NCBI GenBank assembly: GCA_016196925.1
Contig: JACPWS010000001.1
Location: 1 to 40,752 of the forward strand
Reading direction: 5' to 3'
DNA from: Burkholderiales bacterium
GTDB taxonomy: Bacteria; Pseudomonadota; Gammaproteobacteria; Burkholderiales; Burkholderiaceae_D
DNA length: 40,752 bases
Shown: positions 322 through 27,610 of the stretch, in pieces
Layout of the letters: each line of letters opens with the position of its first letter
How positions within the stretch are numbered: position 1 is the first letter of the stretch
Made by a program: the position numbers and the translations under genes
The notes under the pieces: model-generated
Databases searched by the model: none
Told to the model about the DNA's origin: nothing
The model's input: the letters and a program-made list of their open reading frames with translations, nothing else

Positions 322-705
322 ATGTCTAATCATCCAGTTCAAACAGTCAGTACTTCCAATGACAAATACAAGGTCATGCTGGCGGTAGCGGCTGTGGTTG
401 CCGGAGTTGCTGCTTTTTATATTCTCGTTGGTCAATCTACGATGATTCGCGCTGCCGCTTTGCTGGCTGGTCTGGCCGTGGCGGTGGTGCTGATCGCGAC
501 TTCGGATATGGGTCGCGATTTTGTTGCGTTTGCTAAAGAATCTGTACGTGAAGCCAAGAAAGTTGTCTGGCCTACCCGCAAGGAAGCCGGTCAGATTACT
601 GCAGTCGTGTTCGGCTTCGTGCTGATCATGGCGATATTTCTCTGGGGGACTGACAAGTTTCTGGAATTCATGTTGTATGACGTAATCCTTGGATGGAAAA
701 AATAA
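322..705 (+). CDS. secE: Preprotein translocase subunit SecE
   Basis: SecE stabilises SecY in the inner-membrane Sec translocon. The 127-aa product has two N-terminal hydrophobic segments (about residues 18–36 and 43–60). The conserved SecE signature follows, an amphipathic helix with the motif KVVWPTRKE, and then a final membrane segment near residues 96–112. This three-TM form is the long SecE typical of beta- and gammaproteobacteria. The gene follows tRNA-Trp by 34 bp, and its stop codon overlaps the nusG start (TAATG), so the two are probably translated together. Confidence 0.95.
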
Positions 706-1298
706 TGAGCGAGAACATTCAGGAAAACGAACAAGGTGCAGCGCCTACGGTGTCTGTGCCTAAAAGCGCTAAAAGATGGTATGCCGTGCATGCGTATTCC
801 GGCATGGAAAAAAGTGTGCAGCGCGCCTTGACTGAGCGCATAGAGCGCGCAGAGATGCAGGATAAGTTCGGCCAGATTCTGGTTCCTACCGAAGAAGTGA
901 TCGAGGTAAAGAACGGCAAGAAGGCTGTCACCGAGCGTCGTCTGTTTCCTAGCTATGTATTCGTCGAAATGGAAATGACCGACGATACCTGGCACCTGGT
1001 GAAAAACACCAGTAAGGTTACCGGCTTTATCGGTGGTAAATCGAATAAGCCATCGCCGATTCCTCAGCACGAAGTCGACAAGATTTTGCAGCAAATGCAA
1101 GAAGGCGTCGAGAAGCCAAGGCCGAAAGTGTTGTATGAGGTTGGCGAGGTGGTTCGCATTAAAGATGGTCCGTTCACCGATTTCAACGGCAACGTAGAAG
1201 AAGTGAATTACGAGAAGTCCAAAGTGCGCGTCACTGTGACCATTTTTGGTCGTGCGACTCCAGTTGAACTGGAATTTGCACAGGTCGAAAAGGTTTAG
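705..1298 (+). CDS. nusG: Transcription termination/antitermination protein NusG
   Basis: NusG binds the clamp of RNA polymerase, suppresses pausing, and links it to Rho and to the ribosome (S10). The N-terminal NGN domain shows the expected [19 protein letters not shown] start, and the C-terminal KOW domain shows [18 protein letters not shown] chose ATG 705, which overlaps the secE stop and gives 197 aa starting MSENIQ. The in-frame ATG at 693 lies inside secE and adds only four residues. The stop at 1298 is followed by a 122-bp leader before rplK. Confidence 0.93.
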
Positions 1299-1363
1299 AA
1301 ATACGCGCCGCTCGGTGCGCGATAAAAGCAATTTTATCGAAACTGAGGCTAGCAAGAAGAGGA

Positions 1364-1391
1364 GCCCATTAATGTGTATGCATTAGTGGGC
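1364..1391 (+). promoter_or_regulatory. Hairpin in the rplK leader
   Basis: GCCCATTAATG (1364–1374) pairs with CATTAGTGGGC (1381–1391), giving an 11-bp stem with one G-U pair and a 6-nt loop. It ends about 18 nt before the rplK Shine-Dalgarno AGGAG. A second hairpin, GATAAAA/TTTTATC, lies at 1321–1338. In E. coli, L1 represses the L11–L1 mRNA by binding near this point, so this structure is a candidate L1 target. The regulatory role is inferred from position only. Confidence 0.45.
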
Positions 1392-1420
1392 GCTATTACT
1401 CAATTTATGAAGGAGCCATC

Positions 1421-1852
1421 ATGGCAAAGAAAATTATCGGTTTTATCAAGCTGCAAGTGCCAGCTGGTAAAGCAAATCCATCCCCACCGATTGGCCCGGC
1501 TCTGGGTCAGCGCGGTCTGAACATCATGGAATTCTGCAAGGCGTTTAACGCGCAGACTCAAGGTGTTGAGCCAGGCATGCCTATCCCTGTCGTGATCACT
1601 GCGTTTGCGGACAAGTCTTTCACTTTCGTGATGAAGACGCCTCCTGCAACTTACATGATCAAGAAAGCAGCCGGCATCACTAAAGGTTCCGCCAAGCCGC
1701 ATACAGACAAAGTTGGCAAAATCACCCGTAAGCAAGCCGAAGAGATCGCAACCGTTAAACGCGCCGATCTGACAGCCGCCGATATGGACGCCGCAGTGCG
1801 TACTATCGCCGGTTCCGCCCGTTCCATGGGCATCACGGTGGAGGGTCTGTAA
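1421..1852 (+). CDS. rplK: 50S ribosomal protein L11
   Basis: L11 binds the GTPase-associated region of 23S rRNA and takes part in factor binding and the stringent response. The 143-aa length is standard. Conserved features are the N-terminal [23 protein letters not shown], in which the prolines form the hinge contacted by thiostrepton-type drugs, and the C-terminal rRNA-binding part ending in [13 protein letters not shown] 1421 has a strong AGGAG five bases upstream. The stop codon overlaps the rplA start (TAATG). Confidence 0.97.
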
Positions 1853-2547
1853 TGGCTAAGTTATCCAAAAAAGCAAAATTGCTGGCATCTAAAGTCGATC
1901 GTCTGAAGGTTTATTCTTTCGACAATGCGATTGCCTTGATCAAAGAATGCGCAACCGCAAAATTCAACGAATCCATCGACGTTTCTGTACAACTCGGTGT
2001 CGATCCTAAGAAATCCGACCAGGTTGTCCGTGGTTCCGTCGTGTTGCCAGCCGGCACAGGCAAGACCGTACGCGTGGCCGTATTTGCTCAAGGCGCGAAA
2101 GCCGAAGAAGCAAAAGCAGCCGGCGCCGATATCGTCGGTATGGAAGATCTGGCCGAGCGCGTCAAAGCTGGCGACATGCCATTCGACATCGTCATCGCTT
2201 CGCCTGACACTATGCGTATCGTCGGTACTCTGGGCCAGATCCTGGGCCCACGTGGCCTGATGCCAAACCCTAAAGTCGGCACTGTGACTCCTGACGTAGC
2301 GAATGCAGTTAAAAATGCAAAAGCCGGTCAGGTTCAATACCGTACCGACAAGGCTGGTATCATCCACTCGACTATCGGCCGCAAGTCTTTCGGCGATGCA
2401 GAGTTGAAATCCAACCTGGTTGCTTTGATCGATGCATTGAACAAGGCTAAGCCAGCATCCAGCAAAGGCGTGTATCTGCGTAAAGTATCGATCTCATCCA
2501 CTATGGGTGCAGGCGTACGCGTAGACCACGGCAACCTGGCTGCGTAA
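1852..2547 (+). CDS. rplA: 50S ribosomal protein L1
   Basis: L1 forms the mobile stalk that helps release deacylated tRNA, and it represses its own operon by binding the L11 leader mRNA. The 231-aa protein has the family signature near [19 protein letters not shown] (about residues 125–143) and the usual [20 protein letters not shown] segment near the start. Translation is coupled to rplK through a 1-bp overlap. The gene is followed by the 284-bp rplJ leader. Confidence 0.97.
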
Positions 2548-2831
2548 GAATTAAGTCCCTGTGTCTATGACCAGGGCGCATCTTTGGGCTGAATGATGCA
2601 TTCCGTATCATTCAGAGTGTCAAAGACCGTTGGGCCTAGCGCTTAATAACGCGAAGTTAAACTTCTGGAGAGCAATCGACGGAACCCAACGCAGATGGTG
2701 TACCCGAACAAGTTTTGTAGTGCTCCTGGTTCGCCAGTTGAACTCCTAACTTCGGACGCCGTGTTCGAAACGATATGAGGGAAGCGCATCATCCCGATGT
2801 GGTGACTGAATATCATTAATGGAGGTTGACC
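2548..2831 (+). promoter_or_regulatory. rplJ leader (L10-type autoregulatory region)
   Basis: This 284-bp stretch between rplA and rplJ contains no gene. It holds a 9-bp hairpin, CTGAATGAT (2589–2597) with ATCATTCAG (2607–2615). This is followed by AAAGACCGTTGGG, which resembles the conserved core of L10 leaders, and then by further paired segments. In E. coli the L10–L12 complex binds this leader and blocks rplJ translation, and a promoter for the L10 operon lies in the same interval. Both roles are inferred here from position and the short core match. Confidence 0.65.
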
Positions 2832-3368
2832 GTGAGTCTCAATCTGAATGACAAAAAGGCCGTCGTCGCTGAAGTCTCTGCAGTTGTAGCAAATGCACAG
2901 ACTATCGTCGTGGCTGAATATCGTGGCATCCAGGTCGGTCATTTGACGCAATTGCGTGCTAACGCACGTGCTCAGGGCGTATACATGCGCGTGTTGAAAA
3001 ATACACTCGCACGCCGCGCCGTTGAGGGAACTGCCTTTGCCAGCCTCGCTTCTGAAATGACCGGTCCGTTGATCTATGCGATCTCGGAAGATGCTGTTGC
3101 AGCGGCTAAAGTCGTTCAAGACTTTGCCAAAACCAACGACAAGCTGGTTGTTAAAGCAGGTAACTATGCAGGCAAATCGCTGGATAAAGCTGGCGTTGTG
3201 GCATTGGCAAGCATTCCTAGCCGTGAAGTACTGTTGGCGCAAGTTCTGGGTATGATGCAGGCTCCTGTATCCGCCTTTGCCCGCGCTCTGGCAGCTCTGG
3301 CAGCGAAGAAAGAATCCGATACACCTGCAGCACCGGCAGCGGAAGTTGCTGAAGCCGCAGCTGAGTAA
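2832..3368 (+). CDS. rplJ: 50S ribosomal protein L10
   Basis: L10 anchors the L12 dimers of the ribosomal stalk to L11 and 23S rRNA. The N-terminal rRNA-binding part shows [19 protein letters not shown] and [14 protein letters not shown]. The C-terminal helix that holds L12 ends in an Ala/Glu-rich tail. I chose GTG 2832, giving 178 aa starting [12 protein letters not shown], because GGAGG at 2821–2825 is spaced six bases from it. A TTG six bases further upstream is badly placed for that site. Confidence 0.95.
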
Positions 3369-3419
3369 GATTTTTTCGTCAAATACCGTATCAATGTAAT
3401 TTAATAATTGGAGTTTCAA

Positions 3420-3791
3420 ATGGCAATTAGCAAAGACGATATCCTGGAAGCCGTAGGCGCGATGTCCGTAATGGACCTGAACGACCTGGTTAAGGCATTC
3501 GAAGAAAAATTCGGCGTTTCCGCTGCTGCAATGTCCGCCGGCCCAGCCGCTGGTGCTGCTGCTGCTGTAGTTGAAGAACAAACAGAATTCAACGTAATTC
3601 TGGCTGAAGTCGGCGCGAACAAAGTTGGCGTCATTAAAGCAGTTCGCGAAATCACCGGCCTGGGCTTGAAAGAAGCTAAAGACCTGGTTGATGGCGCACC
3701 TAAAGCAGTTAAGGAAGCCGTTTCGAAAGCTGACGCTGACGCTGCCAAGAAGAAATTGGAAGAAGCCGGCGCGAAAGTCGACGTTAAGTAA
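3420..3791 (+). CDS. rplL: 50S ribosomal protein L7/L12
   Basis: L12 is the flexible multi-copy stalk protein that recruits translation GTPases. The 123-aa product has an N-terminal dimerisation helix ([20 protein letters not shown]). An Ala/Gly hinge follows around residues 36–50, and then the globular C-terminal domain with [20 protein letters not shown], the factor-binding surface. I chose ATG 3420 (MAISKDD), with GGAG at 3410–3413. An upstream in-frame ATG would only add MEFQ. Confidence 0.97.
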
Positions 3792-8172: not shown

Positions 8173-8344
8173 CCTTCAGCTAGCCGGAAGTTTGGAAGAG
8201 GATTTTCGTTCCCGGTATCCGCGGCACCCGTGTTGAAAGACCGGGCTCTCCCGCTGATGCGAACAGGGTCAGACGAACAGACTCATCCCTTGCAGCACTA
8301 TTCAGCCAACTAGCGTTTTCTGACGCTTTACTGGAGTGATACAC

Positions 8345-12574
<4,230 letters not shown>

Positions 12575-18345: not shown

Positions 18346-19117
18346 CTATGGCGTAGTGAGCAGCGTCATGCCGGCGCGGTCGGTCTTAATCACATAGTTG
18401 ACGACACTCGCCGAATTTTGATCGTTGAGCGTATACACATATTGACTTAACACGCCGGTTTGCCCAAACGTGCGCAAGGGGCTAAAGCCAAATTTACTGG
18501 CATACCCGGCTGGAATGGCTGAGACGCTGCCGTACTCAAGCCGCAGCGCACCGCTTACCGCATCGATGCTGCGCACCTTGTCGTTTTGCACCACCATCAG
18601 CTGCGCGCAAAAACTGTCCGTGTTAATGCTGAGGCTGGCAGGGTTAAGACAGCCGGCAAACTGGGTATTGCTAAAGGTTTGCAGATTCGAGCCATCGCTA
18701 TTGAGCGCCAGCAGATTATTGCTGATTAAAAAACTGAGCCATATTTTTTCGCCCACCATAATCAGCTGAGGCCAGCGATACTGGATACTGCCGGTAAAAA
18801 TTTTCTGGGCGCTGCCGCCGGATCTCGCCAGCGCGAAGATGTCGCCGCTGATCTGATCGCTTAAAATGACACGGCTAGGGGTGAGCTCTATCCGTATGCC
18901 GGCGGAACCCGGCACGGAACCTAGCAGGGCAGCGGTTTTATTGTTTTTATTGTAGCGAATCAGCTTGCAGCTGCCTCCAGTTACATTGCGACAGATAGGG
19001 ATGAAATACTCCATATAAAACCCGATTCGCCGCAGGCGCGAGGCACATCTGCGTGAACGGTGGCTGATTAGGCGCGGCGTCCACGCCGGTCAGCACCCGG
19101 GGCAATGCCTCTGTCAT
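18346..19117 (-). pseudogene. Truncated, frameshifted hypothetical protein (beta-propeller-like)
   Basis: The main open frame (19014 down to 18346, 222 aa) has short repeated strand-rich units such as SDQISGDIFALARSGGSAQK and LLALNSDGSNLQTF, like blades of a beta-propeller, and three cysteines in its middle and start. The preceding bases, read from ATG 19117 in another frame, encode QMCLAPAANRVLYGVF. This joins smoothly to FIPICRNVTGGSCKLIRY of the main frame if one base is shifted. I therefore read this as the C-terminal remnant of a longer gene with a frameshift. A real short gene starting at 19014 is the alternative. No function is recognised. Confidence 0.45.
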
Positions 19118-19356
19118 GCATCTCCCAACTCATCCCTATCAGTTGCCGATACGTCCGCGTGCCATTCCAGAATATCCCCCGGCTGGCACGCGAGCCGTTC
19201 GCAAATCTTCTCAAGTGTTGAAAACCGGATCCCTCGCACCTTCCCCGACTTCAGCAGCGAGAGATTTTGTTCAGTGATACCGATATAACTCGCCAGCTCC
19301 TTCGACTTGATTTTTCGCTTGGCAAGCATGACGTCCAAATTGATGATGATCCCCAT
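19114..19356 (-). CDS. XRE-family HTH regulator (YozG-like)
   Basis: This small 80-aa DNA-binding protein consists almost only of a Cro/C1-type helix-turn-helix (KSKELASYIGITEQNLSLL, then FSTLEKICERLACQPGDILEW). That pattern matches the short regulators found next to DUF2975 membrane proteins. I chose ATG 19356 (MGIIINLDVML) because it overlaps the stop of the DUF2975 gene (ATGA); the longer frame reaches back into that gene. The pair faces away from the peptide operon across a shared AT-rich region, so it is a good candidate for controlling that operon and itself. Confidence 0.85.
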   Translation of the reverse strand: MGIIINLDVMLAKRKIKSKELASYIGITEQNLSLLKSGKVRGIRFSTLEKICERLACQPGDILEWHADVSATDRDELGDA

Positions 19357-19940
19357 CAGATAAAAGCCTCGTTTTCTTCGCTCAGACGACGCCCTTCCTG
19401 CATAACGCCGACGACCAGGTAAAACAGCCCGCACACAAGCAGCAACAGCAACTCGTTCGACGTAACCTCGATCGGGGTTCGGTAGCCGGTGTCGCCACTG
19501 CTGATCAGATTCAAAATCAGGTTGCGCAACGGCTTTTCGATATTTGACAGCACTGAAGTAATCAGCGCCGCGCCGGTAAATGTGCGCGCATGGTTGATTG
19601 TCAGAGTCGCGAAGATATTCCCTTTCTGGAATTGGCTGATCATCTGGCCAAGCCGCCGCACGGCGTACGTCAGAGTTAGCAAGCCTGGCAGTCCAATCAG
19701 GACTCCGATCGTCCTCTGCATACCGTCCAACTCAACGGTTTCGCCGAAAGGCAAGACCTGGAGATCGAATTGCATGTGTATCGACCCTATCTTTATCGGC
19801 CCCTGCAACGCCCAGGACAGGATGAAGAAGCCAATCTGAACTAGCCAAAAAATGAGCAGCATCCAGCGGATGACATTGCACATGCGAAAGAGTTGGTTGA
19901 ACTTCTGGCCGGCCAGGGAACTTTCTATATTAGTATTCAT
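19356..19940 (-). CDS. DUF2975 family membrane protein
   Basis: The 194-aa protein has four predicted membrane segments: about residues 25–45, 78–98, 120–140 and 160–180. The spacing and the ending, in which GLFYLVVGVMQEGRRLSEENEAFI precedes an overlapping HTH gene, match DUF2975 proteins, which are widely found coupled to a YozG-like regulator. The molecular role of DUF2975 is not established. The pairing suggests a membrane component that senses or sequesters the regulator. A TATAAT -10 candidate on this strand lies at 19996–19991. No strong Shine-Dalgarno is seen. Confidence 0.8.
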   Translation of the reverse strand: MNTNIESSLAGQKFNQLFRMCNVIRWMLLIFWLVQIGFFILSWALQGPIKIGSIHMQFDLQVLPFGETVELDGMQRTIGVLIGLPGLLTLTYAVRRLGQMISQFQKGNIFATLTINHARTFTGAALITSVLSNIEKPLRNLILNLISSGDTGYRTPIEVTSNELLLLLVCGLFYLVVGVMQEGRRLSEENEAFI

Positions 19941-19962
19941 TAAATAATGGAAAAATTAGTGT

Positions 19963-19991
19963 TTGACAGTATTTTTGTTGTAGCATATGCA
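19963..19991 (+). promoter_or_regulatory. Candidate sigma-70 promoter P1, rightward
   Basis: TTGACA (19963–19968), a 17-bp spacer, then TATGCA (19986–19991). The -35 is a perfect consensus. The -10 overlaps a leftward TATAAT (19996–19991) suited to the DUF2975 gene, so the two directions may compete. It would give a leader of about 340 nt before the peptide gene. The 396-bp region 19941–20336 is very AT-rich in its first half and contains no convincing gene apart from these signals. Confidence 0.45.
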
Positions 19992-20103
19992 TTATATCTG
20001 AGACCTACCTCTTTCCTCCCCCCTTTTTTTCTCGGACATCGCTGGCTAAATAAAGGGGCAAAATAAAAAATAAAATTATCGTTATATAATAAAAAATTAT
20101 TTA

Positions 20104-20132
20104 TTGACGATAAAAATAATCTCAGGTAGACT
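20104..20132 (+). promoter_or_regulatory. Candidate sigma-70 promoter P2 for the peptide operon
   Basis: TTGACG (20104–20109), a 17-bp spacer and TAGACT (20127–20132) give a good match to consensus, with an expected start near 20139 and a leader of roughly 200 nt. An inverted repeat TTATCGT (20076–20082)/ACGATAA (20107–20113) overlaps the -35 and could be an operator for the neighbouring XRE regulator. Both are pattern matches only. Confidence 0.45.
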
Positions 20133-20336: not shown

Positions 20337-20462
20337 ATGCAACAGTTTGACATCATCACCGAAGAATTCTCAATCGAAGCCCTGGAAGCGCGTTTCGAAA
20401 TGGAAGCGGCGCCGATCGATGTAGTGCCTGACTGGAAGTCCACCTGCACGATTGAGAATTAA
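20337..20462 (+). CDS. Candidate ribosomal precursor peptide, 41 aa
   Basis: A well-placed GGAG (20327–20330) sits six bases before ATG 20337, and the frame encodes 41 residues ending at TAA 20460–20462. Residues 1–25 are strongly acidic and helix-prone (EEFSIEALEARFEME), a pattern like RiPP leader peptides with an ExLExRFEM-type recognition helix. Residues 26–41 read PIDVVPDWKSTCTIEN, with one Cys (C37) flanked by Ser and Thr and a single Lys and Trp. There is no Gly-Gly cleavage site, signal peptide or lipobox. It is followed by a hairpin and a protease with a PqqD-like domain. Precursor status is an inference from size, composition and context. Confidence 0.75.
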   Translation: MQQFDIITEEFSIEALEARFEMEAAPIDVVPDWKSTCTIEN

Positions 20463-20472
20463 GACTCAAGTT

Positions 20473-20506
20473 TTCGGGAGTGCGGTCACCGTATCGCGCT
20501 CCCGAA
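20473..20506 (+). promoter_or_regulatory. Hairpin between precursor gene and maturation genes
   Basis: TTCGGGAG (20473–20480) pairs perfectly with CTCCCGAA (20499–20506). The stem continues inward with a T-G pair and GCG/CGC, for about 12 bp and a 10-nt loop. No T run follows. In RiPP operons a partial terminator or stabilising hairpin after the precursor gene often keeps the precursor in excess over the enzymes. That role fits here but is inferred. Confidence 0.75.
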
Positions 20507-20567
20507 CAAATTCCACCTTGACACGCAGCGCACCTCGCTCGCGCCAGCTCGCACCGGATCATCCCTC

Positions 20568-21851
20568 ATGTTACTGCCCACCACAGCATCGATTCCCCTG
20601 CTTAAGCCGGGCATCACGATCGCCCCATATCAGGATGATGTCGTATCAGCGACGCCGCGGTTCTTGTTGGCGTTTGGCGATCGTTATTTCCTTGTTTCCG
20701 CGAAAGCGCGCGCCCTCATCCTGACACTGTTGGGCGCACCAGCTAATATAGAAGAGCTTGAAGTCGGTTTCGAAGCCGAAAGCGGCCAGCGCCTTCCGGC
20801 TCAGTATCTGCTCGCGCTTGCCGCCAAAACACTGCCCCCGGTCTTGTTCCACGACGCGCCCGATGCGGCGCGCGAGATGCCATTCATTATCAGCCTCACG
20901 TTGCTCGGACCGCGCATCGCGACCCGGGTGACGGCGTGCATGGCCTGGTTTTTTACCCCTGCACTGGCGCTGCCGTTGGTCGCGATCTTCGGACTGCTGC
21001 ACCTGTTCGCGTTACCATTGGCGATGGATCAGGCCAGCAGTGTCTTCACTGTCAGGGAAAGCATGCAACTGGTATGTCTGTACATGTTAAGCGGGTTGCT
21101 CCACGAGCTTGGACATACATCAGCCTGCCGCTACTTCAAGTGTCCACATGGCGGTATCGGGTTCGGACTCTATTACATATTCCCCGCCTGGTACTCCGAC
21201 GTGACACAGGCCTGGGGCCTGCCTGGACGCCAGCGCGCCGTGGTTGACCTCGGCGGAGTTTATTTCCAATCCATTTTCCTCATCGTCATCGATGCCTGGG
21301 CGCTTGCCACAAACAGTCCGCTCGCGTTTAAGCTGGTATTCATCATCACCTTTACGATGTTGTTTACGCTAAACCCCGTTTTCAAGTTCGACGGCTACTG
21401 GCTGTTGTCCGATCTGAGTGGACTACACAATTTACACCAGCAGGTGCGGCGTTCGACCGCCGCACTGATTGCGACGATGCTAGGCAAACGCCCCGCTGCG
21501 GCATCAACTCTGCGTGGTGCCATCCTGTACGCTTACTCCGCTCTCAGCGTCGGCTATCTGGTCTACTTCGCCCATTTCCTGGTAAGCGCCATAGCCCGGC
21601 TGGTCGGCACGCTCGCGGACGACGTGACAAGCCGTTTGGCTGTGCTGGGCGGTACCACAGCAGATCCGGGCTGGGGTAGTGTGGTTGCCTTCGGCCAGCT
21701 CTGCGAAACGCTGCTCTGGCCGCTGATCCTCCTACTGGCCTGCGTGTTCTTCTTCGATAAATTGCGCCGCTCGCTGATGGAAATTGTCAGCATCGTGCGG
21801 TCGACCCGCGCGGCGGCGCCTGGCGATACGGTAGCCTTGGAGAAACTTTGA
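20568..21851 (+). CDS. M50-type membrane zinc metalloprotease with N-terminal PqqD-like domain
   Basis: The 427-aa protein resembles the 'putative peptide zinc metalloprotease' group that includes YydH of the B. subtilis epipeptide operon. Residues about 11–85 look like a PqqD/RRE fold (KPGITIAPY, then RFLLAFGDRYFLVSAKARALI and NIEELEVGF), the fold that binds RiPP leaders. Membrane segments follow. Within them are the zinc motif HELGH (H179, E180, H183), FPAWYSDVTQAWGL, and the second metal motif NPVFKFDGYWLLSDL (D275). All catalytic residues are present. It should bind and cut a peptide at the membrane, most simply the 41-aa peptide encoded 105 bp upstream. It overlaps the next gene by 1 bp. 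Confidence 0.85.
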   Translation: MLLPTTASIPLLKPGITIAPYQDDVVSATPRFLLAFGDRYFLVSAKARALILTLLGAPANIEELEVGFEAESGQRLPAQYLLALAAKTLPPVLFHDAPDAAREMPFIISLTLLGPRIATRVTACMAWFFTPALALPLVAIFGLLHLFALPLAMDQASSVFTVRESMQLVCLYMLSGLLHELGHTSACRYFKCPHGGIGFGLYYIFPAWYSDVTQAWGLPGRQRAVVDLGGVYFQSIFLIVIDAWALATNSPLAFKLVFIITFTMLFTLNPVFKFDGYWLLSDLSGLHNLHQQVRRSTAALIATMLGKRPAAASTLRGAILYAYSALSVGYLVYFAHFLVSAIARLVGTLADDVTSRLAVLGGTTADPGWGSVVAFGQLCETLLWPLILLLACVFFFDKLRRSLMEIVSIVRSTRAAAPGDTVALEKL

Positions 21852-22798
21852 TGCGAATGCCTCATCTATTCAGTTTTCACATGCGCAAGACGACGGCCGC
21901 CCCCCAGCGTGCCGACCAGCGCATGCAGAATCACACGGCACTGGGAATTGGTTACTTCCTCGGCCAGACCGAGGAATCGACAGCCAACATGGCAGACGCA
22001 ATATTGGAAAAGCGCCACCAGCTACATAGCCCCGAAGTCGCCCAGTCTGCGGCGTTGTTGGCAGAGACCCGCGCGGCGATCGATGCGGCGCTAGCGCACG
22101 GTTCTTGCCTCATGGCGTTACCATGCCACGTCGAGGCGCTACTTCTGCTGCGGGCGCTCGCGCACGACGCCAGCTTGCGCCTGGTTTTGGTCGATAGCCC
22201 GGCCGCCCGCACGTTGAGCGACGAAGCCTTCGCAGGGCGCCACATCGAGCGCTGTGCAACGCAGGACCTGGTCAAGCGTGTGAAGCGCGCTGACGTTGAA
22301 GATGTTCAGGCCGTCTATATCAGTTTCCCGGAGTTGCATTCCTTAACCCATGGCACCACTGCCACCATCCTTTTTCTTGGAAAAGCGTGCCGTGTGTCGG
22401 TGCTCGAATCCCTGCTATGCGTGTCCGGGCTCAATACTCTGCTCACACTTGGCAGCCGCGACGACGCCAGCCATCCCCATCTTATGGTGGTCAGTTGGAA
22501 CCGGTCGGTCTTCGCGCAAAATCAGACACGCGCCATCTCTGTCGCGCTCGGCTGGTTGTGGTCGCACTTGCAAGCGGTGGCAAGCGTGGCGCCTGCCGAG
22601 ATGCTCTCGTGGCACGCACTTTACCGTGCCAGCGAACATTGCCGCCACATTGAGCGGGAGAACCAGATCAAGCAGCTCGAAGCATATTTCGAAGCATGGA
22701 GGCGTTCGCCTGCCGCTCTGTCTGCCGACACCCACCAGCTTGCCTTGGCGCGCCTTGCAGCGATGCGCGATCACAAACCACCAGGAGCGGCAGCATGA
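21851..22798 (+). CDS. Unrecognised protein, possibly a degenerate acyltransferase-fold partner
   Basis: The 315-aa product matches no family I can name with confidence. Residues about 150–205, containing AVYISFPELHSLTHGTTATI followed by LFLGKACRVSVLESLLCVSG, follow the same block order as the LpxL-type acyltransferase core of the next gene. An earlier block, GSCLMALPCHVEALLLLRAL, aligns by position with that core's His block but lacks the H-x4-E pattern. It may be a catalytically weak paralogue or a substrate-binding partner. No signal peptide or clear membrane helix is seen. ATG 21851 overlaps the protease stop; a TTG one codon earlier is less likely. It overlaps the next gene by 4 bp. Confidence 0.7.
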   Translation: MRMPHLFSFHMRKTTAAPQRADQRMQNHTALGIGYFLGQTEESTANMADAILEKRHQLHSPEVAQSAALLAETRAAIDAALAHGSCLMALPCHVEALLLLRALAHDASLRLVLVDSPAARTLSDEAFAGRHIERCATQDLVKRVKRADVEDVQAVYISFPELHSLTHGTTATILFLGKACRVSVLESLLCVSGLNTLLTLGSRDDASHPHLMVVSWNRSVFAQNQTRAISVALGWLWSHLQAVASVAPAEMLSWHALYRASEHCRHIERENQIKQLEAYFEAWRRSPAALSADTHQLALARLAAMRDHKPPGAAA

Positions 22799-23850
22799 TC
22801 AGCGCAATCCGAGAAGCACTGCTGCGCCAGCGCATCGCGCTGGCTCGCTTACAACTGGTGAGCCAGGATACGCCATCCGCTCTCGCGCAGTTTACCCAAT
22901 CGGTGCGGATTGCCTTTCCCGCACTATCCGACAGAGAAACGGGCAGTCTGTATGCGCGCTACCGGCTGTCGATGCGCAAGTTCGGACTGCTCAAGAACCA
23001 CCTGTCGGCACTGGATGAGGGTCAACTGAGCAGATTCCTGGACCGCCACGTCGACGTCGAAGGGCAGGAACACCTTGACGCAGTCAAGGCGGACAAGGCG
23101 CCGGTAATTTTTGTCACGCCACACTATGGCAATTTTCCCGCAGGCTGCCTGAAGCTAATCAAGGAAATCGGACGCACCAAGACCATCAACGCTTTCTATA
23201 ACCCGCCGTCGAAAAATCGCAGTTCGGAAGGCTTCGAGGAACTGTTCCATGGCTTGGGCTACGGCTTCAACGCGCTCTTCAATGACGAAACAGCGGTGCT
23301 GAAAGCCTTGCGCGTTCTCAAGCGCGGTGAAGCGCTGACAATGATGCCGGATGTCTTTGATATCAGCGGCCATGTGCTGTACGTCCCCTTCTTCGGACGT
23401 CTGATCCCGGCCATGGCGGGTACGGCGCTGTTCGCGCTCAAGAGCCGCGCCACGATCATCGTGGGCTACAACTGTCCTGGCGAGGGGCTGAAATCGACCC
23501 TGAAACTGGGCAAGCCGCTCGTGTTCGAACGCAGCGGCAAGCTCGACGAGGATATTGCCGCCCTGACAGCCGCGATTTTTCGCGAGCTCGAAGCGCAAAT
23601 CCGTCAATCGCCTGAGCATTGGATTTACCTGCGGGGCATCGGCGACTTGCTGGGCGGTCGACTCATCCTAGGCACCGGGCAGACGGACGACTGGCTCGCC
23701 GCGCTCGATGCCGCCACGTCGCAGATTGACGCCATGCTACCGGACTGGCCCGACGCGCTACGGGAAATCAAGGCCATGCACAGTACAGAGAACCGGCGGC
23801 GATCCGCTGCGAGTCAACTCCTTCCCACACCACATAAGGCATACTCTTAA
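22795..23850 (+). CDS. LpxL/HtrB-like acyltransferase family protein
   Basis: The 351-aa protein has the block order of lipid A late acyltransferases. APVIFVTPHYGNFPAGCLKL (H110) comes first, then TINAFYNPPSKNRSSEGFEE, then TMMPDVFDISGHVLYVPFFG followed by AGTALFALKSRATIIVGYN. It lacks the usual N-terminal membrane anchor. The catalytic H-x4-E/D motif is altered, with proline (P115) where the acidic residue should be, so it may use another residue or have another chemistry. In this operon it is more likely to acylate the peptide or a carrier than lipid A. AGGAG lies seven bases before ATG 22795, which overlaps the previous stop. Its own stop overlaps the next start (TAATG). Confidence 0.75.
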   Translation: MISAIREALLRQRIALARLQLVSQDTPSALAQFTQSVRIAFPALSDRETGSLYARYRLSMRKFGLLKNHLSALDEGQLSRFLDRHVDVEGQEHLDAVKADKAPVIFVTPHYGNFPAGCLKLIKEIGRTKTINAFYNPPSKNRSSEGFEELFHGLGYGFNALFNDETAVLKALRVLKRGEALTMMPDVFDISGHVLYVPFFGRLIPAMAGTALFALKSRATIIVGYNCPGEGLKSTLKLGKPLVFERSGKLDEDIAALTAAIFRELEAQIRQSPEHWIYLRGIGDLLGGRLILGTGQTDDWLAALDAATSQIDAMLPDWPDALREIKAMHSTENRRRSAASQLLPTPHKAYS

Positions 23851-24566
23851 TGAAAAAAATACTCTTCCTGCTGTCGCTGTGCGTTGGCCTGTCCACCGCC
23901 GCCACCGCCGCCACCGCCACCGCCGTCACCGGCGCCACCGGCGCCACCGGCGCTGATCGCGATTGGGTCGATTACAAACACCTTCTCGAAATTACCCGGC
24001 TCGACAAATTCTACGCGGCACCCGTAGCGCTGCGCGACAAAGTCAGGATGTACGGCACGGTCAAACCCAATAACGCCGGCATCGCGCCTGCCGGCATCGT
24101 ATTCACGGTGGTGCATGGTGCCGAGCGCAAACGGATCTCGGTCAGCGCCGACGGCACATTCGATCCTGCGATCGATCCGGCATGGGCCAAAGACAACCCG
24201 AAAGTACTGACCAATATGCCTGAAGGCGAAAAGGCCGGCTTCTCATTTGGCGCGGCGCCGCTTGTTCCGGCAGGCCTGCAGTTCGATTACCAGTCGCTGA
24301 TGGGTAGTGTGCCGCAAGGTAACGCACTGATCAAGGCGCAAGCCGGTATCATGCGCTTCATGATGCCGACCTTCGTCGGGCTGGCATTGCATTACCCGCG
24401 CGGCGAAGCGGCCACTGCACACATCCAGTCGCGTCAAGGTGAGAAAACCATCAGTGCCGACGCCAACGGCGTACTGCGCTTGATGTTCGAAGAATCCTTG
24501 CTCGCGGCAAACGCCCAAGTGACATTGTCACAACGCCCACAATCCTTTGACCTGATTGCCGATTAA
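23850..24566 (+). CDS. Exported protein with Ala/Thr/Gly repeat linker
   Basis: The 238-aa product starts with a clear Sec signal peptide (MKKILFLLSLCVGLSTAATA). It is followed by a low-complexity stretch ATATAVTGATGATGAD and then a soluble domain that should be periplasmic. The domain has several strand-rich blocks such as RMYGTVKPNNAGIAPAGIVF and AHIQSRQGEKTISADANG, but I do not recognise a family. It has no Cys after the signal peptide, no lipobox and no catalytic motif. Its place between the acyltransferase-like gene and the CPBP protease suggests a periplasmic role such as binding, immunity or delivery of the operon's product. Confidence 0.75.
   Translation: MKKILFLLSLCVGLSTAATAATATAVTGATGATGADRDWVDYKHLLEITRLDKFYAAPVALRDKVRMYGTVKPNNAGIAPAGIVFTVVHGAERKRISVSADGTFDPAIDPAWAKDNPKVLTNMPEGEKAGFSFGAAPLVPAGLQFDYQSLMGSVPQGNALIKAQAGIMRFMMPTFVGLALHYPRGEAATAHIQSRQGEKTISADANGVLRLMFEESLLAANAQVTLSQRPQSFDLIAD
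23893..23954 (+). repeat. Short tandem CCACCG/GCGCCACCG-type repeat inside the exported protein gene
   Basis: About 60 bp are built of CCACCGCCG-like and GGCGCCACC units that encode the Ala-Thr and Gly-Ala-Thr run just after the signal peptide. The units are multiples of three, so gain or loss of copies would change linker length without breaking the frame. Confidence 0.8.
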
Positions 24567-24569
24567 ACG

Positions 24570-25523
24570 ATGCCAACACAGGGTGGACCAGGCCGCTACT
24601 CACGAATAAAAAACTGGCTGCTGCAATGGACATTGTTCCGTATCGCGTTGGCAAGCGCCTGCATGGTGCTGTCGACCACCTTGCTCGGGCCGGTGACCAG
24701 ATCCTTCACGCCAGGCTCCGCACCGCGCATGGCGATGGCTGGGGTCGGGATCGCGGTGGTACTGGCCTGCTACAGTGGCTATGTGCGCTGGATCGAGCAG
24801 CGACCCGCACGCGAGCTGTCGCTGCCCGGCGCCGGGCGCGAATTCGGCTTGGGAATGTGCCTCGGACTGGCCGTGTTTGCGCTCGTGATCGGCATCCTGA
24901 CCGGTGTGGGTGCCTACCGCATTACGGGGCGGAACGACTTGTCGGTCATGCTGGCAACGATACCTGGCTTTCTGGTTGTGGCCGTGTTCGAGGAAGTACT
25001 GTTTCGCATGATCATATTTCGCATCCTCGAATCAGCGTTAGGCAGTTGGAACGCACTGGCCATTTCGTCGCTTGCCTTTGGCTTGATGCATCTCGGGAAT
25101 CCGGATGCGGGACTGCTCAGTGCGCTCGCGATTTCCATCGAAGCCGGCCCGATGATCGGCGCTGCCTACATGCTGACGCGTCGGCTGTGGTTATGCGCGG
25201 CGCTGCATTTCGCCTGGAACTTTGCGCAGGGCGGCATCTTCTCGATCGCAGTGTCGGGTCATAAGCAGAAAGGACTGTTTGAAATGCAACTTACGGGTCC
25301 CGACTGGCTCACTGGCGGCCAGTTCGGGGTGGAGGCTTCGCTAATAGCCATTCTCGTGTGCATGCCACTTGGGGCTGCGATGCTGGCTCAAGTGGTGAGC
25401 GCAGACAGAATTGTCCGCCCCGGTTGGCGCATCGCCGCAGCGCGCCGAACTGGAACGGCCGCATGGCTGCTGGCAAACGAATCAAACGAGAATTCCAAAG
25501 GAGTGGCAAGCGAAACCGGATGA
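24570..25523 (+). CDS. CPBP family intramembrane metalloprotease
   Basis: The 317-aa polytopic protein carries the three CPBP/Rce1 signatures: EEVLFR (E141, E142, R146), FGLMH (F170, H174) and HFAWN (H213, N217). Several membrane segments surround them. The family includes Rce1, which cuts prenylated CaaX proteins, bacteriocin self-immunity proteins, and S. aureus MroQ, which contributes to Agr autoinducing peptide maturation. It starts 3 bp after the previous stop, so it belongs to the same operon, either as a second processing protease or as the immunity function. Its stop overlaps the ATG at 25520 of the M16 remnant. Confidence 0.85.
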   Translation: MPTQGGPGRYSRIKNWLLQWTLFRIALASACMVLSTTLLGPVTRSFTPGSAPRMAMAGVGIAVVLACYSGYVRWIEQRPARELSLPGAGREFGLGMCLGLAVFALVIGILTGVGAYRITGRNDLSVMLATIPGFLVVAVFEEVLFRMIIFRILESALGSWNALAISSLAFGLMHLGNPDAGLLSALAISIEAGPMIGAAYMLTRRLWLCAALHFAWNFAQGGIFSIAVSGHKQKGLFEMQLTGPDWLTGGQFGVEASLIAILVCMPLGAAMLAQVVSADRIVRPGWRIAAARRTGTAAWLLANESNENSKGVASETG

Positions 25524-27610
25524 TGTTCAGATATGCACGATGCTTTCCCGCTTTCGCTATTGGATTGGTTCCCTACAACATCTCTTTCGGCGCCGTGCTC
25601 AAGCCGCAACGCGCGCTGAGCAATACCTGGACCCGCGAAGCGCAGCGCGACGGCACGCGTGAAGTGACCGTGCGCCGGGTCGGCGATCAGCAACTGGCGG
25701 CGGTGTTGTATCCGACTTCTCCGGGCAGCCACGCCGATGCGGCGGCGATTTCCGCGCTGGCGCAGATCCTGGGCGCCGAGCCTAACGGCCGTCTGTACAA
25801 GCAACTGGTGGAGAGCAAGCAAGCGGTGAATGTAGGCGAGATCGCGTTCCAGCTGGCGGAACCCGGCTACACCATGTTCCTGGCGAATCTGAATAAAGAA
25901 CAAAACATAGAGCAGGCCAAGAAAACCCTGATCGCCACCGTGGAAGGCCTGGCGCAGACGCCGGTCACGGAAGCGGAACTGAAACGCGCTAAAACGCATC
26001 TGCTGAACGCGCTGGAAAAAACCATCAACGACCCGCAACGCCTGTGCGTCAGCATGTCGGAATCGATAGCGATGGGCGACTGGCGCCTGTTCTTCATCCA
26101 GCGCGACCGCATCGAAGCGCTGACCCTGTCCGACGTGCAGCGCGTCGCGCAGAATTACTTCAAGCCGGACAACCGCAGCTACGGCCAGTATTTGCCGGTA
26201 GCAGCACCCGATCGCGCCGAGATCCCGGCGGCGCCGGATGTCGCGAAACTGGTGGACGGTTATAAAGGCCGCGCCAGCGTCGCCGCCGGCGAAACTTTCG
26301 ACGCCACCCCGGCGAATATCGACAAGCGCACCGAAAAACTCACGCTGGCAAACGGCGCCAAGGTCGCCTTGCTGAGCAAAAAAACCCGCGGCGAAACCGT
26401 GAACGGCCGCCTGAGCCTGCATTTCGGCGATGAAAAATCGCTGTTCGGAAAAGTCGCGGAATCCGATTTGACAGCCGACATGCTGATGCGCGGTTCCGGT
26501 AAATTCACGCGCTCCGAGCTGGACACGAAATTAGGCGAGCTGAAGGCGAAACTGACGATCTCCGGCGCCGGACAAAATCTGGTGGTGGGCTTCGATACCG
26601 TGCGTTCCAACCTGCCGGCGCTGCTCGATTTGTTGCGTGAAGTCTTGCGCGCGCCCAGCTTCCCGCAAAGCGAATTCGATATGCTGGTCAAGGAAAATCT
26701 GGCCGGCATGGAAGCCTCGCGCAACGAGCCGCAAACGGTCGCCAGCCAAGCGAACAGCGTCTTGCAGAATGCGCCGTATCAGAAGGGCGACATCCGTTAT
26801 ACAGCCTCGACCGACGAAGCCATCGCCGCTTACAGCGCAGCCAGGCTGGACAGCGTAAAAGACTTCTATAAGAATTTTTACGGTGCCGGCAGCGCAGAGT
26901 TGTCCCTGGTCGGCGATTTCGATGCCGCCGCGGTAAAAGCGCAATTGGCGAACGTGCTCGGCGACTGGAACAGCCCGGCAAAATTCGTGCGCGCGCCTGA
27001 CCTGAACCTCAAGGCGGAAAGCCAGGCCAAGACCATAGAAACACCGGACAAGGCGAATGCATTTTATCTGGCGACCCTGCCGTTAGAACTCGATGACCAG
27101 GCCGCCGATTATCCGGCTTTGCTGGTGGCGAATAATATCCTCGGCGGCGGCATCAAGTCGCGTCTGTTCGGCCGTTTGCGTCAGAAAGAAGGCATCAGCT
27201 ACGGCGCCGGCAGCAGCCTGTCGGTTCCGGCGCTGGACAAGAATGCGCGCGTCACCCTGTATGCGATGTATGCCCCGCAAAACCTGGAGAAATTGCAGAC
27301 CGGCGTCAAGGAAGAATTGGCCCTGTTGGTCAAAGGCGGTGTGACGGCGACCGAGTTGGCCGACGCCAAGCAGGCGCTGGCGCAGGAAAATAATATCCGT
27401 CGCGCACAGGACGCCGGCCTGGCAGGCAGCCTGCGCAATCAGCTGTTCCTGGGCCGCAGCATGGACTTCGACGCAGCGCTGGATGCCAAGCTGGCAGCCA
27501 TGACGCTGGAGGAAGTCAATGCGGCGATACGCAAATACATCAAGCCGGAAAGCTTCGCGCATTTCTATGCTGGTGATTTTGTGGGCGCGGCCAAGAAGGC
27601 GGTGAAATAA
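25520..27610 (+). pseudogene. M16 peptidase lacking its catalytic N-terminus
   Basis: From about residue 25 the 696-aa frame matches the later part of a two-repeat M16 (pitrilysin/insulinase-type) periplasmic protease. It contains TREVTVRRVGDQQLAAVLYP, KRAKTHLLNALEKTINDP, then a full second M16 unit with RLRQKEGISYGAGSSLSV. Such proteins usually exceed 900 aa and carry the zinc motif HxxEH in their first 100 residues, which is absent here. The first residues (MMFRYARCFPAFAIGLVP) do not look like the family. The simplest view is that insertion or deletion at the island border removed the 5' third. A role as a non-catalytic partner cannot be excluded, because the frame is otherwise intact. Confidence 0.75.

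Follow-up and report, generated by a model that had tools for sequence, protein, structure and literature searches.

What kind of product is made by an operon that couples a 41-residue peptide to a membrane protease and to two acyltransferase-like proteins, and does it belong to a known class of ribosomally synthesized and post-translationally modified peptides (RiPPs)? The locus lies at positions 20,337 to 25,523 of a 40,752-nucleotide stretch of contig JACPWS010000001.1 (assembly GCA_016196925.1) from a Burkholderiales bacterium; we refer to the whole stretch as the window. A preliminary description had proposed that the peptide is bound through its leader, perhaps acylated, and cut at the membrane. 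Our analysis shows the operon to be genuine and conserved, of RiPP type and apparently not described before; it has a regulator of its own and would encode a two-subunit enzyme of lysophospholipid acyltransferase (LPLAT) fold. We consider it very probable that the operon makes a RiPP, and we give the overall explanation, including acylation, cleavage and regulation, a probability of roughly 0.5.

Operon layout and conservation of the precursor peptide

The window sequence contains the six open reading frames at the coordinates originally assigned, all in one direction:

20337 to 20462, plus strand: precursor peptide gene, 41 amino acids; motif and one Cys kept in 15 precursors from 13 loci
20473 to 20506, plus strand: hairpin between the peptide and M50 genes (best stem)
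20568 to 21851, plus strand: M50 site-2 protease, 427 amino acids; HELGH at residues 179-183, NPVFKFDG at 269-276, RiPP recognition element (RRE)-like domain at about 8-97
21851 to 22798, plus strand: gene 3, LPLAT-fold protein, 315 amino acids; catalytic His absent at the expected place
22795 to 23850, plus strand: gene 4, LpxL/LpxM-like acyltransferase, 351 amino acids; His110 kept, Glu of HX4E lost
23850 to 24566, plus strand: gene 5, accessory DUF2987 protein; Pfam E-value 1.9e-8, signal-like N terminus (by eye)
24570 to 25523, plus strand: gene 6, accessory CPBP (Rce1-like) membrane protease; Pfam E-value 2e-17, motifs EExxxR, FxxxH, and HxxxN

The ribosome site described for the peptide gene is present as GGAG 6 bases ahead of its ATG, and the genes from M50 to gene 6 are joined, as claimed, by the overlaps TGATG, ATGA, and TAATG and then by a 3-base gap between genes 5 and 6.

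The preliminary description had made its case depend on conservation of the peptide frame beside the M50 gene in other genomes, and such conservation was found. A search of 392 genomes of the family returned 49 M50 matches at E ≤ 1e-10. Twelve of these fell below 1e-25, a threshold picked once the list was known, and all 12 of these strongest genomes carry the peptide. In 11 of them the precursor lies upstream within about 650 bases of the M50 gene; in the remaining one, G369, two precursors lie about 3 kb downstream, both identified by motif and one of them also by the profile, at E 7.4e-4. The other 37 of the 49 genomes gave no precursor match at E 0.01. The order peptide, M50, gene 3, gene 4 is identical in nine loci of the family and recurs in locus L086 of genome G680, from another order of the class, where gene 3 was assigned by position and 15% identity only. 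In Duganella guangzhouensis, M50 and gene 3 are fused in one 708-residue frame. L086 comprises, in this order, two tandem precursors, the M50 gene, the gene 3 analogue, an LpxL-like gene, and a gene for an alpha/beta hydrolase whose start resembles, by eye, that of a lipoprotein.

The window peptide matched, by tblastn, loci from J. lividum PAMC 25724 (L031), M. agri (L032), Massilia sp. HP4 (L033), and D. guangzhouensis (L034) at 57-68% identity over 38-41 of its 41 residues; the precursors themselves are 66, 68, 54, and 59% identical to that of the window, respectively. Partial matches were obtained in L043-L045, every match lay just upstream of an M50 match, and the L046 precursor was found by frame listing. 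Loci L040-L042 lie in the genomes of L031-L033 and G1310 is the genome of L034, and each was counted once. In the window's genus (43 genomes), a profile of 12 precursors detected 5 at E ≤ 0.1; with one of these (E 0.06) set aside, 4 of 43 remain. The same profile recovered a second precursor of genome G308, which was outside the profile, at 4.3e-6, and in a sample of 398 genomes of the phylum it detected two precursor copies in G680, likewise outside it, at E 1.7e-12 and 4.7e-12. Of 28 genomes matched at E 0.1 in that sample, the window's own genome (G000) and G680 passed 1e-3, and the other 26 were set aside. Across the 392 family genomes, a 15-precursor profile gave 14 matches at E ≤ 0.01, the 11 below 1e-10 being members of the profile and hence not independent, and no further strong precursor away from such an M50 gene; the matches in G151 and G247, at E about 0.007, lie in longer frames (265 and 167 amino acids) and were dismissed as chance. 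In many genomes the precursor profile scored only 18 or 22 of the first-look candidates, so that misses are possible. Finally, in the 13-codon leader of eight sequences, 158 of 276 pairwise differences fell at codon position 3, the pairs not being independent. The count was 5 of 5 for the window against L031, and it was not significant for the window against L086 (8 of 16) or L047 (5 of 11).

The window leader carries EFSIEALEARFEMEAAP (residues 10-26), the motif MExxP is exact in 8 of the 15 precursors, and no signal peptide was seen by eye on the window precursor. With the cut site placed by the daptide leader ELExMEAP, the core is probably IDVVPDWKSTCTIEN. The cores of G680 (DWKCTCTIEN), M. 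agri (EWKCTCTIEN), and the window (DWKSTCTIEN) are alike, and a single Cys is common to all 15 aligned precursors. The preceding position of the Cys pair is Ser in the window, L033, and L048, and this replacement in three precursors argues against a chemistry needing two Cys.

The shared Cys also raises the possibility of a thiolactone closed on the C terminus, as Cys plus four residues in the window, L031, L032, and L086. Both this ring size and the STC sequence resemble the staphylococcal autoinducing peptide (AIP). The integral-membrane protease MroQ acts in the AIP pathway (excerpt of PMC10885120), and the NCBIfam MroQ model matches gene 6 weakly (0.013). However, the six operon proteins include no AgrB-like protein or ATP-using enzyme, the precursor has no C-terminal extension, and the tails after the Cys vary from 4 to 12 residues, and we consider such a ring very improbable.

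The hairpin between the peptide and M50 genes was also corroborated, as the intergenic stretch has a z-score of -3.0 and 0 of 200 dinucleotide shuffles were as stable. Stable intergenic hairpins occur in L031, L032, L034, L086, and L047 but in none of L033 and L043-L046; the hairpin is thus not a general feature.

The M50 protease and the acyltransferase-fold pair

The best NCBIfam match of the M50 protein is the daptide_HExxH model, at 85 bits with a cut-off of 300, and YydH/LiaK matches at 57 bits with a cut-off of 225; the L086 protein reaches 109 bits against the daptide model. The RRE assigned to its N terminus held up in part: the topology agrees, and TbiB1 and a heterocyclase are among the structure matches, but these matches lie below a firm Z-score. 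A Foldseek search with the whole M50 model gave no match at E ≤ 0.001. The 41-residue precursor may be captured through its leader (FSIEALEARFEME) by this RRE, and the protease would then cut after MEAxP inside the membrane and free the core. Removal of the leader by the M50 protein is, in our estimate, likely. Separately, a plasmid collection contained three distant M50 matches at E 1e-20, of which the one inspected is unannotated.

The acyltransferase-like pair proposed for genes 3 and 4 was recovered by two routes, gene 4 by profile and gene 3 by predicted fold. Gene 4 matches Pfam Lip_A_acyltrans (PF03279) at 5.2e-15 (55.9 bits, gathering score 22.3), its structure matches are LpxM entries 5knk and 5kn7, and a His and a PD motif are kept in 12 of 12 proteins. 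By its predicted structure, gene 3 also has the LPLAT fold. A profile comparison of the two by hhalign reached a probability of 0.2 on a scale of 100; the link is visible in the predicted fold only. We propose that genes 3 and 4 would form a two-subunit LPLAT-fold enzyme acting on the captured peptide. Most likely this enzyme would attach a fatty acyl group or a comparable lipid to the core, and the Cys common to the 15 aligned precursors is the first candidate site. For a lipid-type modification by this pair the odds seem to us about even; its placement on the Cys is more tentative.

The acylation suggested in the preliminary description is weakened by the active sites of both proteins. The LPLAT catalytic motif is HX4D/E, and the title of the 5knk record names the catalytic Glu. 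This acid is absent in 12 of 12 gene 4 proteins, and the catalytic His is missing in 10 of 10 gene 3 proteins, where its place reads LPCH in the window and LPFN, LPFS, or QPFS elsewhere, against PHxGxxE in relatives; both losses count against the acylation proposed here. By comparison, ordinary LpxL-type paralogues, one in G000 and another in G250, have the sequence PHLGCFEI. These observations favor an account in which the RiPP frame is kept but genes 3 and 4 transfer no acyl group. Their LPLAT fold would then have been adapted to a different task, for example tethering the peptide to the membrane, transporting a lipid substrate, or catalyzing another condensation at the Cys. Against it, the conserved His and PD motif of gene 4 suggest a working active site, and a thiol acceptor would need less help from a base. 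We regard this account as possible but unlikely.

The L086 gene 3 protein found no other locus by tblastn. In L047 (6079-6813) and L048 (7537-8247), whose clusters include an LpxL-like gene, M50 is followed by a protein of 245 and 237 amino acids, respectively, and the two are 35% alike; as candidate gene 3 relatives they were rejected, as no profile relation was found, and they have no Pfam match and no detectable family.

The exported protein and the CPBP protease listed in the preliminary description are both present, but they are not part of the core. CPBP and DUF2987 genes accompany it in 4 of 10 core loci (window, L031, L032, and L034), an alpha/beta hydrolase stands in their place in L086 and the related L047, and neither kind adjoins the core in 5 of 10. 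Gene 5 matches DUF2987 (PF11205) at 34.8 bits with a gathering score of 25. As L086 has the core without CPBP, the basic product probably does not require this protease, and CPBP with DUF2987, or the hydrolase elsewhere, may be exchangeable accessories for trimming or self-protection.

The accessories bear on what the product is for. CPBP proteins act as immunity proteins elsewhere, and swapped accessories together with a patchy occurrence fit a bacteriocin-like role, in which the product would be an antibacterial lipopeptide and the CPBP/DUF2987 or hydrolase genes would serve self-protection. The precursor was found in 6 of 74 Duganella genomes, including G369 (the genus name being inferred through L034). 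In the class sample the precursor profile found 1 of 321 genomes, the window's own. In the order to which G680 belongs it matched 1 of 148 genomes, and in its family 1 of 116, on both occasions G680 itself; relatives of the system occur in several other genera. This patchy distribution fits horizontal spread of an optional trait. However, half of the core loci have neither accessory next to the core and the core is conserved, and on balance we judge an antibacterial role unlikely.

Downstream of the operon, an M16 peptidase gene (window 25358-27610, plus strand) lacks its first ~244 codons, including the HxxEH active site, and the M16 similarity begins 60 bp past the CPBP stop codon. In L043-L046 the M16 gene is convergent and adjoins gene 4, with 921 amino acids (915 in L046) and HxxEH seen in L043. 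The operon may have arrived by recombination that cut the M16 gene.

A conserved regulator pair and an operator-like element

The range originally given for the operon contains its six genes but left out two regulatory genes and an operator-like element upstream (19114-20132):

19114 to 19356, minus strand: XRE/HTH_26 regulator, 80 amino acids; Pfam HTH_26 6.3e-23, overlaps the DUF2975-like gene
19356 to 19940, minus strand: divergent DUF2975-like membrane protein, putative partner of the regulator at the membrane; Pfam PF11188 8.8e-5, 22.9 bits with a cut-off of 27
20077 to 20112, no strand assigned: operator-like element TATCGTTATATAATAA (plus strand) and, 20 bp farther along, an inverted partner; each differs from the consensus at 3 positions, overlaps the -35 box
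20104 to 20132, plus strand: promoter-like site TTGACG-17-TAGACT; 2 such sites found with 1.2 expected, weak by itself

All nine core loci found in the family have the DUF2975-like and XRE genes beside the operon, divergent in eight of them and in line in L034. The XRE protein is 81-91% identical in the other eight loci, where the operon proteins reach at most 70%. Among 20 chosen genomes, all eight core genomes tested have a single DUF2975 relative, beside the operon, while 11 of the other 12 lack such a relative at E 1e-8 and the last, G308, contains a weak one at another place; these 12 include G332, G253, G308, G369, and G680, which carry related systems with no operon-adjacent DUF2975 relative.

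An element near TATCGTAAAACAATAA lies between regulator and peptide in all nine loci with 0-4 mismatches, and its inverted partner 20 bp away is present in six; the consensus was derived from five loci, from which the four Duganella-type loci differ by 2-3 mismatches. When single loci are considered, the best inverted repeat is significant in L033 (equalled in 0 of 60 shuffles) but not in the window (10 of 60) or in L031 (50 of 60). At up to 4 mismatches the 16-base consensus has a few scattered matches elsewhere in the window, L031, L032, and L033. We propose an operator because the element is conserved in nine loci. In a five-locus alignment of the promoter-like site, TTGAC is kept in four and TAGACT in three. 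A further operator-like copy with 4 mismatches lies at 19956-19971 (minus strand), near the start of the DUF2975-like gene, and perhaps reflects autoregulation or chance.

Regulation of the operon by the XRE/DUF2975 pair is probable in our view. The pair would act on the promoter by way of the operator-like element, and it may respond to the product itself or to what the product does to the membrane. A dedicated regulator pair with an operator-like element could also be read as peptide signaling, in which the DUF2975-like protein would detect the product as a pheromone and XRE would pass the signal on to the operon itself. Many antibacterial cores are variable, whereas the core WKCTCTIEN is kept between orders. 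However, G680, which has this core, contains no DUF2975 relative at E 1e-8, nor do G332 and G253, and autoregulation is also common for toxic products. We consider a signaling role unlikely.

Relation to known systems and significance

No match to a known RiPP class was found, in agreement with the preliminary description. Daptide (MpaP-type) systems have an N-terminal RRE (an RRE-like domain here) fused to an intramembrane M50 protease, and like the operon they have a leader of ELE...MEAP type. Their defining enzymes and the leader ELExMEAP are given in an excerpt of PMC10036551; the six operon proteins include no aminotransferase, alcohol dehydrogenase, methyltransferase, or DUF-RRE, with an LPLAT-fold pair instead. 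Moreover, 0 of 15 precursors end in the invariant C-terminal Thr of daptides, and the M50 protein scores below the NCBIfam cut-off, as described above. Epipeptides (YydH/LiaK, EpeP) have a related M50 protease, and their class is marked by a radical SAM epimerase; the operon has neither a radical SAM protein nor an ABC transporter, and its precursor differs. The epipeptide protease is thought to cut and export (excerpt of PMC10885120). Selidamides, goadvionins, lipolanthines, and lipoavitides are lipid-bearing ribosomal peptides, as the product here would be if acylation is right, but selidamides use GNATs on side chains; no GNAT model matched any of the six operon proteins, the acyltransferase is of PF03279 type, and no lanthionine enzyme is present. 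The operon is a member of none of the daptide, epipeptide, and selidamide classes, and it is probably an RRE-M50 RiPP system that shares ancestry with daptides at the leader and the protease.

Other likenesses are more partial. LpxL/LpxM and PatA share the fold of genes 3 and 4 and the His and PD motif of gene 4, but the pair lacks the catalytic residues described above, and its genes accompany a peptide gene rather than genes for lipid A. In S. aureus, Lns lipoprotein N-acylation is a two-protein acyl transfer with a CPBP-like member (excerpt of PMC7387801); LnsA, however, is of NlpC/P60 and not LPLAT type, LnsB is without the CPBP catalytic motifs that gene 6 has, and lipoproteins are the substrate. 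DAG-RiPPs carry a lipid on a Cys (excerpt of PMC12636315) but use the lipoprotein pathway and a signal peptide, which by eye the window precursor lacks. Searches of listings from open-licence papers turned up no RiPPs paired with lipid A or lysophospholipid acyltransferases. A bolder claim is that of a new RiPP class, in which a heteromeric LPLAT (a pseudoenzyme subunit with a Glu-less one) would lipidate the leader-bound peptide on the Cys thiol, the RRE-M50 protein would release it at the membrane, and XRE-DUF2975 would sense it at that site, giving a lipopeptide signaling circuit with new acylation chemistry. We hold the full combination to be improbable.

Several other loci carry similar precursors or proteases. 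In L049 (G369), M50 (8308-9570) is followed by an arginase-family protein (9471-10832) and two tandem precursors at about 12270 and 12640, with leader ELETRLEM and cores ending SCSRCCANSSK and SCSRCCASAK; it is possibly an ornithine-forming RiPP cluster. L050 (G308; 428-3646) has two precursors (ICCECLLQPYC and SCGICIPSHPYDRC), M50, and an LPLAT-type protein, and its contig continues with frames resembling phytanoyl-CoA dioxygenase and the start of a nonribosomal peptide synthetase (by eye). In the cyanobacterial L037 (6449-9167), an LPLAT-type protein stands beside an RRE-M50-type gene and a Pro/Thr-repeat peptide with leader EVEQRLEL and no Cys. In L036, L038, and L039, which are cyanobacterial or acidobacterial, M50 occurs together with a precursor of the leader type and a protein of radical SAM/SPASM type (scanned in L038), and L036 and L038 also contain frames of one permease-like cluster (named by eye).

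The operon would connect the fold of lipid A acyltransferases with the modification of ribosomal peptides. Should gene 4 prove to acylate in the absence of the Glu, altered LPLAT chemistry could be tested on it. The motif of the leader, which also occurs near a cyanobacterial radical SAM enzyme and an arginase-family protein elsewhere, gives a handle to mine wider RRE-M50 systems, and the conserved regulator with its operator-like element makes induction directly testable in culturable Janthinobacterium, Massilia, and Duganella.

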